Shown here in pieces: positions 2,560 to 55,987 of a stretch of 64,000 bases of DNA. This stretch comes from Anaerolineales bacterium (GTDB taxonomy: Bacteria; Chloroflexota; Anaerolineae; Aggregatilineales; UBA2796): NCBI GenBank assembly GCA_015075625.1, contig JABTTZ010000001.1, positions 186,001 through 250,000 of the forward strand. Reading direction: 5' to 3'. The number at the start of each line of letters is the position of its first letter. Within the stretch, counting starts at the first letter, position 1. The position numbers were made by a program, and so were the translations under genes. The notes beneath the pieces were generated by a model. The model ran no database searches. It was not told where the DNA came from and saw nothing but the letters and a program-made list of their open reading frames with translations.

Positions 2560-2671
2560 TATGTCAAAAGTGTGTTCCAAAATAATAACAGAGATGGTGA
2601 ACGAAACAGACGCAGATATGAAATCGTTATAGATAACCCTGAGAGATCGCCACACAGGGGCTATTACAAAT

Positions 2672-2812
2672 AGACCTTACGCAGTTGAAGATGTTTACCG
2701 TGTATTCATGGAAAGGGGAAGTTTGAGGGGGAAGCCCCCTCAAAAAATAGATACCCCCCTTTTTGTACTGGGAGAAGGGAGGTAGGGGGACGAGGGCAAG
2801 TGCGTAACGCCT
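2672..2812. repeat. MITE-like repeat, family 1 (copy A)
   Basis: A 141-bp element with imperfect terminal inverted repeats, AGACCTTACGCA at the left and TGCGTAACGCCT at the right. It contains an internal hairpin (TTTGAGGGGG/CCCCCTCAAA). It closely matches copies at 50335-50736 and 55059-55215. It fills most of the 406-bp gap between the terpene synthase and leuC. The rest of that gap is the terpene synthase promoter and a C-rich stretch (about 2836-2880) shared with other intergenic regions. No clear target duplication remains. Confidence 0.65.
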
Positions 2813-2884
2813 AAAGGTATTGAGATGTGGGATTCAGAACCCCTATCCCCCCCTGCCCCTTTCCCTGTACACAGGGAAAAGGAG

Positions 2885-18366: not shown

Positions 18367-18469
18367 CTCTCATCTTCCAGAAAAAAACTGTCGGAGTTAG
18401 CACCATCCCGACGCTTCGGGGGTTGCTGCGGTTTCAACGAGCCGTTCTCTCCACCGCTCTGGATAAGAG
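18367..18469 (-). ncRNA. SAM-I (S-box) riboswitch aptamer
   Basis: Reading on the minus strand the leader shows the S-box consensus: CTCTTATCCAGAG, GGTGGAGAGAACGGC, GAAACCGCAGCAACC and GATGGTGCTAACTCCGACAG, closed by GATGAGAG. The ends CTCTTATC (18469-18462) and GATGAGAG (18374-18367) form an 8-bp P1 with one G-T pair. It sits about 180 nt before the metK start, where such riboswitches are expected, and should repress metK when SAM is abundant. Confidence 0.93.
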
Positions 18470-29550: not shown

Positions 29551-29658
29551 AATGGGTAAAGTCTTTCTGTTGCTGTCATTTTAAGAATAGCTACGAACGA
29601 ACATGAACCAAAAAAGTACGTTTCCCGATTGTCTAAAATAACCTACACTATGTCATAT

Positions 29659-29729
29659 AGGAGCTACACACTTGCCCTTATCCCCTTCTCGATGAATAAG
29701 GGGTAAACACGTTCAACTGCGTAGGTCCT
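29659..29729. repeat. MITE-like repeat, family 1 (short copy D)
   Basis: A 71-bp element with ends AGGAGCTACACA and TGCGTAGGTCCT, flanked by the 7-bp direct repeat GTCATAT (29652-29658 and 29731-29737, one extra A at the right). The gap 29551-30045 has no gene: this element, a REP-like unit at 29973-30024 and otherwise unrecognised sequence. Confidence 0.6.
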
Positions 29730-29972
29730 AGTCATATTCTAAAAAGGCAGTCATTTTGTGGGAAGGTTGGATCGTGAATAGATGCGGCGTCCAGATCATT
29801 TTAGGTGGGCTTGGCTTGCTCTTGTCCGCGGAGTAGGTCACTTTTGATGATTTGCTCCATGACGCCTACCCAACGGGTTGGCAGTGGGGGACGATGCGGG
29901 GCAGCCCCCGCCGCGCTACGGCTGATCATCACGTTGGGGTTTAAAACAGACGCTCGATGCCGTGTTTGCCTC

Positions 29973-38214: not shown

Positions 38215-38396
38215 CTAGTCCTGACCTTCCTGATGACATTCGGCGTATAGTAACGCGGCTTGCGCACTTTTGCATGAGAACACCGTGAAGGCGTAGGGAT
38301 AGCGGCGGAAAATGAGCAACCCCTTTATCGAATTTTGATTCGATAAGGGGGCGGGGGATAGGGGTTCTTCTGGAAATCACTGTGGTCAGGAACTAG
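38215..38396. repeat. CTAG-bounded inverted-repeat element
   Basis: 182 bp with ends CTAGTCCTGACC and (inverted) CTAGTTCCTGACC, differing by one inserted base. It begins 7 bp upstream of the SH3/beta-lactamase-like gene start and contains C/G-rich intergenic repeat sequence with an internal palindrome around ATCGAATTTTGATTCGAT. Confidence 0.5.
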
Positions 38397-38423
38397 GGGG
38401 ATGAGGGCAAGTGCGTAACGCCT
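38390..38423. repeat. Right-end fragment of the family 1 repeat
   Basis: GGGGGATGAGGGCAAG followed by TGCGTAACGCCT matches the right end of copies A-C; the left end is absent. It directly joins the CTAG element. The rest of the 38209-38590 gap has two small hairpins. Confidence 0.45.
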
Positions 38424-38536
38424 ACAGCATTTTTCAACGAGATTGACCCCTTAGTGGTTGACAGCCCCGCTTATCGCAATACACTTACCGATGGGCCAGG
38501 CGGTGGTGATCAAGGGGTAAACGAACAACGCCCGCC

Positions 38537-50287: not shown

Positions 50288-50334
50288 TTGCCGCTACAGG
50301 GCGTGTGAGGGGCGCTGCCCCTCACAACCCTTAT

Positions 50335-50736
50335 AGGACTTACGCAGTTGAATGTGTTTCCCCTGTATTCATTGAAAGGGGGAGTTTGAGGGGAAGCCCC
50401 TCAAAAAGATGATTCCCCCCTCTTCCCACGAGGGGATTTGAGTGGGCGACAGCAGCTTTTTCGCTTATCCCCTATGACCCGCCTTCGGTGTGTACCTGCT
50501 CCGCCCTCATGCGGGCAAAGGGGGAATCGAGACTGTGAAGATAACCCTCTCACACGATCCACTCTGGGGGTGTAGGGAACACCCCCACAAAACAATCCCC
50601 CTTCTCTCCCACATCGTGGGAGAGAAGGGGGCAGGGGGATGAGAGGACTATTGCCATCGTTTATGAGCTAGTGTCGTCCCTCACCCCACGCAGTGGGAGA
50701 AGGAGCTAGGGGGTGAGGGCAGCTGCATAACTCCTA
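50335..50736. repeat. MITE-like repeat, family 1 (long composite copy B)
   Basis: 402 bp, from AGGACTTACGCA at the left to TGCATAACTCCT(A) at the right, flanked by the direct repeat CCTTAT (50329-50334 and 50737-50742). Internal hairpins include a perfect 16-bp stem with a 3-nt loop at 50597-50631 and GGGGGTGT/ACACCCCC. The extra length suggests two or more fused units. No other feature was seen in the 479-bp gap. Confidence 0.6.
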
Positions 50737-50766
50737 CCTTATTTTCCCTTCCCCCTCTCAAGTTGC

Positions 50767-53542: not shown

Positions 53543-54904
53543 TTAGACGATATGACGACGAATTTCGTCCGGGCATTCTGTGCGGGAGACGGTCATTTCT
53601 TCTTTGGTGGCGAGGTTTTTTAGTTTGACCATCCCTCCGTTTAGCTCGCTGCTGCCCATGAGCGCCACAAGGGGAATCCCTTTTTTCGCCGCATAGGTGA
53701 ACTGGTCGCCTAGTTTTGCCTTGCCGCCAAGGTAGAGTTCGACACGCAATCCAGCACGGCGCAGTTCCATGGCAAGTGCCGCTGACTCTCTACGGGTGTC
53801 GGGAAACACAGCCACCATGACCTGCACAATGGTGCTGTTCAGGTGCGCTGGATACAAATTGCGTTTATCCATGAGGTAAATGAGGCGTTCAATGCCGAGG
53901 CTGATTCCCACTGTGGGGAGCGATTCCTTGCGAAACAAACCAATCAAATCATCGTACCGACCTCCACCACTCACACTTCCTACACGTTCTTCGCTATCGC
54001 CCGACATGAGAACAGTTTCACAAATGGTCGAGGTGTAATAGCTTAAGCCCCGTACCATAGACGGATCAAACTCCACAACGGCATCGGCAGCGCCTGTTGT
54101 TTGCAACAGTTCAAACAGCGTTGTAAGGTCTGCCAACCCTTCCTCGGCGCTTGGATACCCCGCCAGTTGTTCGCGGAGCGCAGCGATTTTCCGCAAGCCA
54201 ATACCAATCCCAAGCAGTTCACCCGGACGGGCTTCCTTCAAGATGGCGATGATTTTCGCGGCAACCTCTGCCGAAATGCCTTGTTTTAAGAGATCTGCCT
54301 GAACGCCCTCCAGCCCAATTTTGTCGGCTTTATCGATAGATCGATACAAATTGGCGAGGGCGTCGCCCTCTAAGCCAGCGTAGTGACCTATCCCTGTGAG
54401 AAGTTTCCGATTATTTATTTTGATTGCATAATCGGGAAATCCCAAGCGAGACATCGCCATATCAACAATACCGATAATTTCCGCATCGGCATCCATCGTC
54501 CCTATGCCAACAATGTCAGCATCACATTGGAGGAACTCCCGATACCTTCCCCGTTGAGGCGTTTCGCCACGCCAGACGGGGGCGATTTGGTAACGCCGGA
54601 AGGGAAGGCGTAAATCGTTCTCGTGTTGGGCAAAGGCACGGGCAAGTGGTACGGTTAGATCGTAACGAAGGGCAAGTTCTTCCTCGCCACCGGGGTGCCC
54701 GGCGTAGTAAATCAATCGTTCGGCGTCTGCCCCGTACTTCCCCTGAAGAACCTCTTTGAGTTCCATGACGGGGGTCTGAAAAGGTTCATAGCCAAACGAT
54801 TCAAAAACAGCGGCAATTGTTGAGATAACATACTGTCGCCGTATCATTTGTAAGGGTAAAAAATCACGCATTCCTGAAGGAAGGCGAGCGGTGATCCGTT
54901 GCAC
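53543..54904 (-). CDS. hisS: Histidyl-tRNA synthetase
   Basis: Charges tRNA-His; class II synthetase of 453 residues. Motif 2 region RYQIAPVWRGETPQRGRYREFLQCDADIVG, histidine-specific LVRGLSYYT-like segment (MVRGLSYYTSTICE), motif 3 GISLGIERL and a C-terminal anticodon-binding domain (TIVQVMVAVFPDTRRES) are present. The ATG is at 54904-54902. A possible extended -10 (TGCTAGAAT, 54978-54970) precedes it; no T-box was seen in the short leader. Confidence 0.96.
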   Translation of the reverse strand: MQRITARLPSGMRDFLPLQMIRRQYVISTIAAVFESFGYEPFQTPVMELKEVLQGKYGADAERLIYYAGHPGGEEELALRYDLTVPLARAFAQHENDLRLPFRRYQIAPVWRGETPQRGRYREFLQCDADIVGIGTMDADAEIIGIVDMAMSRLGFPDYAIKINNRKLLTGIGHYAGLEGDALANLYRSIDKADKIGLEGVQADLLKQGISAEVAAKIIAILKEARPGELLGIGIGLRKIAALREQLAGYPSAEEGLADLTTLFELLQTTGAADAVVEFDPSMVRGLSYYTSTICETVLMSGDSEERVGSVSGGGRYDDLIGLFRKESLPTVGISLGIERLIYLMDKRNLYPAHLNSTIVQVMVAVFPDTRRESAALAMELRRAGLRVELYLGGKAKLGDQFTYAAKKGIPLVALMGSSELNGGMVKLKNLATKEEMTVSRTECPDEIRRHIV

Positions 54905-55058
54905 TTATCTAGACCTGCTCTTTGCTGAATATCAGACATCTCTCTATCATGGTAGAGGTTATGTAATACATTCTAGCAGAGATTTTCTAAATTGGACACG
55001 CGAACTTAACAAAGGTTTATAAAGGACTTCGATGGAAACTAGTTAACCTCATACAAGT

Positions 55059-55215
55059 AGGACTTACGCAGGTGAACGTGTTTACCTTGTATTCATCGAA
55101 AGGGGAAGTTTGAGAGGGAAGCCCCCTCAAAAATGGATTCCCCCTTCTCCCACTGGAAGAGCAGGTACACGCCGAAGGCGGGTCGCAGGGGGATGAGGGC
55201 ACGTGCGTAACTCCT
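55059..55215. repeat. MITE-like repeat, family 1 (copy C)
   Basis: 157 bp with ends AGGACTTACGCA and TGCGTAACTCCT (11 of 12 positions complementary), flanked by the 5-bp direct repeat CAAGT (55054-55058 and 55216-55220). It closely resembles copies A and B, with the same TTTGAGAGGG/CCCCCTCAAA hairpin. It occupies the hisS-DUF2344 gap. Confidence 0.7.
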
Positions 55216-55300
55216 CAAGTCATGAATGTAAGCGCCTACCCACTCTCGTTTAGGGTCGTTATCGTAGCGCTCGAAACGCTGCATGAACAGGACGTGTCGT

Positions 55301-55987
55301 GTGACCGAAGTAACCCGTCTCCGTTTACGGATTACCTTCCATAAGGAAGGTGCGCTCAAGTATATTGGGCATTTAGATTTAGCGAAAATTTGGGAGCGCG
55401 TCCTACGGCGGGCGCAAATCCACCTTGCCTATTCACAAGGGTTTAATGCCCGTCCCAAGATGCAGTTTGCCTCCCCACTGTCATTGGGCTGCACCAGTGA
55501 AGCAGAACTGATCGATGTCTGGTTAGAGGGGGGTAGCCTCACCCCAGAGGAAATCACCGCCATTGCCCAGAAATTGGCTACCGTTAGCCCTGTTGGGTTG
55601 GTCATTCGCCGCACCGAAAGCGTCCCAGAGCGAACGCCAGCGCTCCCTACACTGGTGCGACGGGCGCATTACACGGCAACCCTCGAAGCACCGCAGCCCG
55701 ATCTTACTTTGCGAGTTAGCACGCTCATGGCGCAACCCACCATCCTCCGCACTCGGAAGGAAAAGACTTATGATCTGCGCCCCTTGATTGTTGCCCTTCA
55801 CGCCGTCGATGATCGCCACCTGACGATGATCTTGGCGGCGCAGGAACACGCCGGCGTCGGGCGTCCTGATGAGGTGTTGGAAGCGTTGGGGTTTGATCCG
55901 TTGTCGGCAGCGCTGCACCGCACGGCATTGGAACTGGACACCAGCCTTACCACCCTCAGCCCCTCTCCGGCGTTAGAGCAAGAATGA
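55301..55987 (+). CDS. DUF2344 protein (TIGR03936 radical-SAM-linked family)
   Basis: A 228-residue soluble protein. GTG at 55301 is chosen because AGGA lies 8 nt upstream; the ATG at 55283 lacks a ribosome site. The N-terminus shows the family pattern KYIGHLDLAKIWERVLRRA, then YSQGFNARPKMQFASPLSLG. The family is often fused to or encoded beside a radical-SAM protein; none is adjacent here. Function is unproven in the family. Its stop abuts the convergent molybdenum hydroxylase gene. Confidence 0.88.
   Translation: MTEVTRLRLRITFHKEGALKYIGHLDLAKIWERVLRRAQIHLAYSQGFNARPKMQFASPLSLGCTSEAELIDVWLEGGSLTPEEITAIAQKLATVSPVGLVIRRTESVPERTPALPTLVRRAHYTATLEAPQPDLTLRVSTLMAQPTILRTRKEKTYDLRPLIVALHAVDDRHLTMILAAQEHAGVGRPDEVLEALGFDPLSAALHRTALELDTSLTTLSPSPALEQE

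Follow-up and report, generated by a model that had tools for sequence, protein, structure and literature searches.

The Copies in the Window and Their Genome

The window, i.e., the whole stretch of 64,000 nucleotides analyzed here, contains the focal MITE in an intergenic position, with open reading frames at 53543-54904 (-) and 55283-55987 (+) on either side. This element and its relatives in the window, listed in Table 1, are short (73-403 bp), multi-copy, and have inverted ends. An earlier note on this DNA had described four copies and one half-copy with such ends, and all five places are present as described; as it had also stated, none of the copies was seen to contain a transposase gene. 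The ends, previously given as AGGA(C/G)TTACGCA, are indeed shared and inverted, but the true repeat extends one base further at either side (TAGG...CCTA; TAGGACTTACGCAGTTG), a boundary read from lined-up copies with clear duplications. Two of the three direct repeats that had been reported are in register, although shorter than claimed, i.e., CCTTA rather than CCTTAT and GTCATA rather than GTCATAT. The third, CAAGT at the focal copy, is not in register: since this copy ends in C and not A, the CAAGT fits only with a repeat starting at AGG. At the borders of the copy at 2671..2813, where a target duplication was looked for, none is left.

Table 1. Coordinates of the MITE copies in the window and of their flanking repeats
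Feature	Position	Strand	Remarks
Focal MITE	55058..55216	+	159 bp, termini TAGGACTTACGCAGGTGA...GCACGTGCGTAACTCCTC
CAAGT, left reported duplication	55054..55058	.	Overlaps first base (T) of canonical terminal repeat; out of register
CAAGT, right reported duplication	55216..55220	.	Begins on terminal base, C where A is usual
Long MITE copy	50334..50736	+	403 bp; ends and left half of the MITE
Target-site duplication CCTTA, left, of 403-bp copy	50329..50333	.	
Target-site duplication CCTTA, right, of 403-bp copy	50737..50741	.	
Short MITE copy	29658..29730	-	73 bp, internal deletion; orientation from ...TTCAACTGCGTAGGTCCTA end at right
Target-site duplication GTCATA, left, of 73-bp copy	29652..29657	.	
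Target-site duplication GTCATA, right, of 73-bp copy	29731..29736	.	
MITE copy	2671..2813	+	143 bp
Right-end MITE fragment GGGGGATGAGGGCAAGTGCGTAACGCCTA	38390..38424	+	Fused to unrelated dispersed repeat; MITE right end = 38412-38424

The 403-bp copy appears to be inflated by a second dispersed repeat nested inside it. This other repeat (CCCGCCTTCGGTGTGTA...GGGGGTGTAGGGAACACCCCCAC...AATCCCCCTTCTCTC) was observed at window positions 50440-50650, seemingly nested in the long copy, and in the right flank of locus L061. Another dispersed repeat, starting CAGCATTTTTCAACGAGATTGACCCC and present at window positions 38425-38500 and at loci L010 and L017, is twice joined directly to a MITE right end. 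Elsewhere in the window there is a SAM riboswitch at 18367-18469 (-; 89.4 bits).

In the window alone, a search with the 12-mer allowing two mismatches was not significant (11 found versus 5.6 expected); the significance of the family comes instead from genome-wide counts and long alignments. The genome (4.68 Mb in five contigs, 98.5% complete) contains 26 exact occurrences of AGGACTTACGCA versus none of the reversed control, and blastn with positions 55059-55215 found 42 places, including the query itself, at E < 1e-18 (the best 40 of 207 candidates being scored). When all lists were merged, there were about 69 distinct MITE places genome-wide. The consensus element, of approximately 140-160 bp, runs from TAGGACTTACGCAGTTGAACGTGTTTACCCTGTATTCATCGAAAGGGG through an inner palindrome (GAGGGGG-AAG-CCCCCTC) and a second palindrome (CCCCCTTCTCCCA-CTGGGAGAAGGGGG) to GGGGGATGAGGGCAACTGCGTAACGTCTA.

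Several further observations were made in the same genome. In the inner palindrome, the spacer of 3 bp is found both ways round (AAG in 22 copies, CTT in 17), as if the centre flips. Two inverted MITE copies lie 2.4 kb apart, inside larger inverted flanks (G000:C3:154492-157058; loci L049 and L054), and enclose the gene for a FAD-dependent oxidoreductase. A second family of MITEs is also present, with CTCACCTTACGCA...TGCGTAAGGTGAG as its termini (L041 1261-1404, L005 420-563, L276 4474-4618, and L047, end 1639) and with apparent duplications of 6-7 bp. Several of its copies have an interior of the TAGGAC family, as if the terminal bases had been exchanged; a transposase for this second family was not found. 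A search of plasmids with the MITE gave nothing of note.

Distribution of the Ends and Evidence for Insertion

The exact 18-mer TAGGACTTACGCAGTTGA gave at least 120 matches in a scan of GTDB genomes. Among the matches listed were Chloroflexota, Cyanobacteria, Methanosarcina, Methanothrix, and Desulfobacterota, as well as Poribacteria, Myxococcota, Hymenobacter, Thioploca, a planctomycete, and others. Nearly all of those with two recognisable ends measured 72-195 bp; they have these ends in common, and their interiors are mostly unrelated. Within the order, a congener (37 MITE ends) and one genome of another family each carry about 30-40 ends, whereas most other genomes have no such ends.

When all of the fetched loci were considered, exact duplications of 5-8 bp flanked 94 of 165 distinct elements, compared with about one per shuffled set; 66 of these duplications were of 5 bp and 22 of 6 bp. 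A separate cyanobacterial sample gave duplications of at least 5 bp in 24 of 33 elements. The earlier note had also called for empty sites in relatives, and one was obtained, although for a relative of the element rather than for the copies in the window. A Methanosarcina MITE (118 bp, duplication AGAGA) was set against 31 Methanosarcina genomes, and in one of them (G257) the locus is uninterrupted at 86% identity, lacking the MITE and one copy of the duplication to within 1 bp; this difference is attributable to divergence. For the window's own genome a single site, a kinase/regulator insertion, was tried, and no ortholog was found in the congener.

These results bear on a rival reading, in which the copies are not mobile elements but are retained because they function as RNA hairpins or as regulatory repeats of the REP type. 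Their inner palindromes are strong, with folding z-scores of about -2.9, as such a role would lead one to expect. However, there was no Rfam match on the MITEs, the ends are kept while the interiors are unrelated between genomes, and insertion is shown by the target duplications and the empty site, making this reading very unlikely. Use as a hairpin is nevertheless compatible with mobility, and the host might use single copies.

Insertion Sequences with the Same Ends

A Desulfobacteraceae genome full of 103-bp MITEs yielded, through a search for DDE_Tnp_1 genes, a 1055-bp IS with ends TAGGAGTTACGCAGTTGA and TAGGAGTTACGCAGTTGG. Its 340-aa transposase belongs to IS701_2 (NCBIfam NF049921), scoring 368 bits against a cut-off of 250. 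Of 18 MITE-bearing genomes that were searched, 13 contained relatives; G011 and G050 in this set are evidently a single genome that entered twice. Two Methanosarcina have complete ISs with the same ends (duplications ATTAC and TAAGTA), and others with the full MITE ends occur in Desulfobacteraceae, Gloeocapsa, Dehalococcoidia, and Anaerolineae. Those from Hymenobacter (CTATC, GACTT), Thioploca (CATAT), and Anaerolineae (AGATA) have TAGGACTTACGCA but different distal bases. The partner ISs are 1051-1174 bp long, with target-site duplications of 5-6 bp, and what they have in common with the MITEs is, as far as seen, confined to the terminal repeats. Their transposases have conserved acidic residues at what are presumably the three catalytic positions, and the motifs DDST, FDSWYA, and WxIExxHRxxKQ are retained in most aligned members. 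The ISs with GTTG ends fall mostly in one clade and those of the window's genome in another; the main GTTG clade does not include L328 and L329, two distant ISs whose ends are GTTG or related.

Among 199 genomes of the class, 14 of the 28 with such ends also had IS701_2 (at E 1e-15), a co-occurrence above chance (Fisher p = 9e-7, a value uncorrected for the shared ancestry of the genomes); the reversed pattern, used as a control, was never found in these 199 genomes.

Because the copies have no transposase, the earlier note had held that one must be encoded elsewhere, and matching ends do occur on ISAba11 and on IS701_2-encoding ISs of many phyla. The predicted IS exists, however, in other genomes: the ends match a resident autonomous IS in Desulfobacteraceae, Methanosarcina, and Dehalococcoidia, but not in the window's genome, where no IS was found whose ends equal those of the MITEs exactly or over their full length. 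The congener has none at all, despite its 37 MITE ends. A resident matching IS is not required for MITE status, and orphan MITEs are known.

Could the MITEs instead be cross-mobilised by the IS701_2 elements that are resident (1058 bp, ends TAGGACTTTCGCTT), so that no lost IS is needed? Their transposases are of the same family, the two agree at most of the 12 outermost end positions, and a frame of 333 aa is uninterrupted in at least one copy. Yet the differing end bases (TTACGCAGTTG versus TTTCGCTT) are consistent within each set, and the resident copies, about eight in number and all with TAGGACTTTCGCTT ends, are few and belong to a different clade, stops interrupting most of them; the intact one has VADSV where others have VDDSV. 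Judged from these sequences, cross-mobilisation is unlikely.

The length of the duplications would also fit a transposase of the IS1634 family (5-6 bp), and IS1634-type genes (PF14104) occur in several MITE-bearing genomes. However, the window's genome has none, the high-copy IS1634-type elements of Methanosarcina spelaei lack matching ends, and near one such gene the MITE only adjoins it. No DUF4277 transposase with the MITE ends was found in these genomes; as a general partner, IS1634 is refuted, and that it mobilises the MITEs at all is hardly credible. An IS5-family IS beside a truncated MITE (L012 ~1537-2405; G000:C2 ~924156-925024; NF033580) was rejected, having other ends (GAGGGTGTTATGCACTTT).

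We consider it very probable that the copies are MITEs mobilised in trans by a transposase of the ISAba11 group (NCBIfam IS701_2), with duplications of 5-6 bp. The MITEs would keep only the terminal inverted repeats (~17-18 bp) around a non-coding, palindrome-rich interior. The DDE transposase of the group, encoded by ISs of ~1.05-1.2 kb, would bind these ends in trans and excise or copy the MITEs, inserting them with a stagger of 5-6 bp that would give rise to the duplications. Because the resident IS701_2 copies represent another branch with TAGGACTTTCGCTT ends, we infer that transposition in the window's genome was due to an IS with GTTG-type ends, since lost or never long resident, and the MITEs of this genome look like elements orphaned by such a lost or transient IS. 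The family is genuine, but of an ordinary kind, with helper ISs that are widespread and little noticed. This assignment names the transposase group behind a type of MITE that ranges from Chloroflexota and Cyanobacteria to methanogenic archaea, and the 18-bp signature lets such repeats be annotated and told apart from regulatory repeats.

Element Lengths and Known Systems

MITE families with unrelated interiors cluster at lengths of 83-84, 92-94, and 116-117 bp. Among 36 families of up to 130 bp, 19 were at 82-84, 92-94, or 115-117 bp, and only 0.7% of null sets, smoothed by a construction of our own, were as concentrated. A scan for periodicity gave a peak at 11.1 bp (R = 0.50), a value of R reached by none of 5000 smoothed null sets, and the first sample alone gave R = 0.58 at 11.05 bp. 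Cyanobacterial elements added later, found with a search pattern that admitted only 67-127 bp, peak at 93 bp, which comes close to the phase of the first sample (~94.5) without matching it exactly. The clustering possibly reflects helical phasing, and we treat it as a lead rather than a result. More specifically, we tentatively propose, at rather less than an even chance, that the lengths are discrete and independent of the interior (~72, 84, 93, 105, 117, and 128 bp, a step of ~11 bp), because pairing by the transposase requires both ends to lie on one side of a tightly bent helix. On this view the interiors would be arbitrary spacer DNA that has arisen many times over in archaea and bacteria. 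If so, the discrete lengths would be a natural series on the permitted closeness and helical phase of two transposon ends.

A literature search for the end sequence gave no relevant match, and in the portions available, the literature on IS701 with MITE, or on ISAba11 with MITE, is sparse and states no link. As defined in 2008, the IS701 family has a duplication of exactly 4 bp and a size of 1400-1550 bp (PMC2266710). The partner ISs, with duplications of 5-6 bp and lengths of ~1.05-1.2 kb, differ in both respects, so that they belong to IS701 only in the wider, present-day NCBIfam sense.

With regard to other MITEs, MITEAba12 of Acinetobacter is likewise short and non-autonomous, with terminal repeats matching those of an IS and with target duplications (PMC6382973). 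Unlike the MITEs of the window, it has a resident partner, ISAba12, and duplications of 9 bp, and it is of near-constant length (111-114 bp) within the Moraxellaceae (PMC6382973). The MITEs of Anabaena sp. 90 (PMC3542288) are many and palindromic, have no matching resident IS, and are likewise orphaned; the available part of that report names no partner family, and our likeness is one of description, not of termini.

The closest named element to the partner ISs is ISAba11. The ISAba11 group (ISAba11, ISPna6; NF049921, transpos_IS701_2) has identical 13-bp termini (TAGGACTTACGCA) and a 5-bp duplication, and its ISs of ~1.05-1.2 kb encode the same transposase family as the partner ISs. A copy annotated as ISAba11 (1101 bp) has TAGGACTTACGCA at both ends and lies within a CATAT duplication, and ISPna6 has the same ends. 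ISAba11 differs from the elements in the window, which have no transposase, and distally the terminal repeat reads TTGA in ISAba11 versus GTTG(A) in the MITEs of the window. Its protein is 36% identical to the partner transposase of Desulfobacteraceae.
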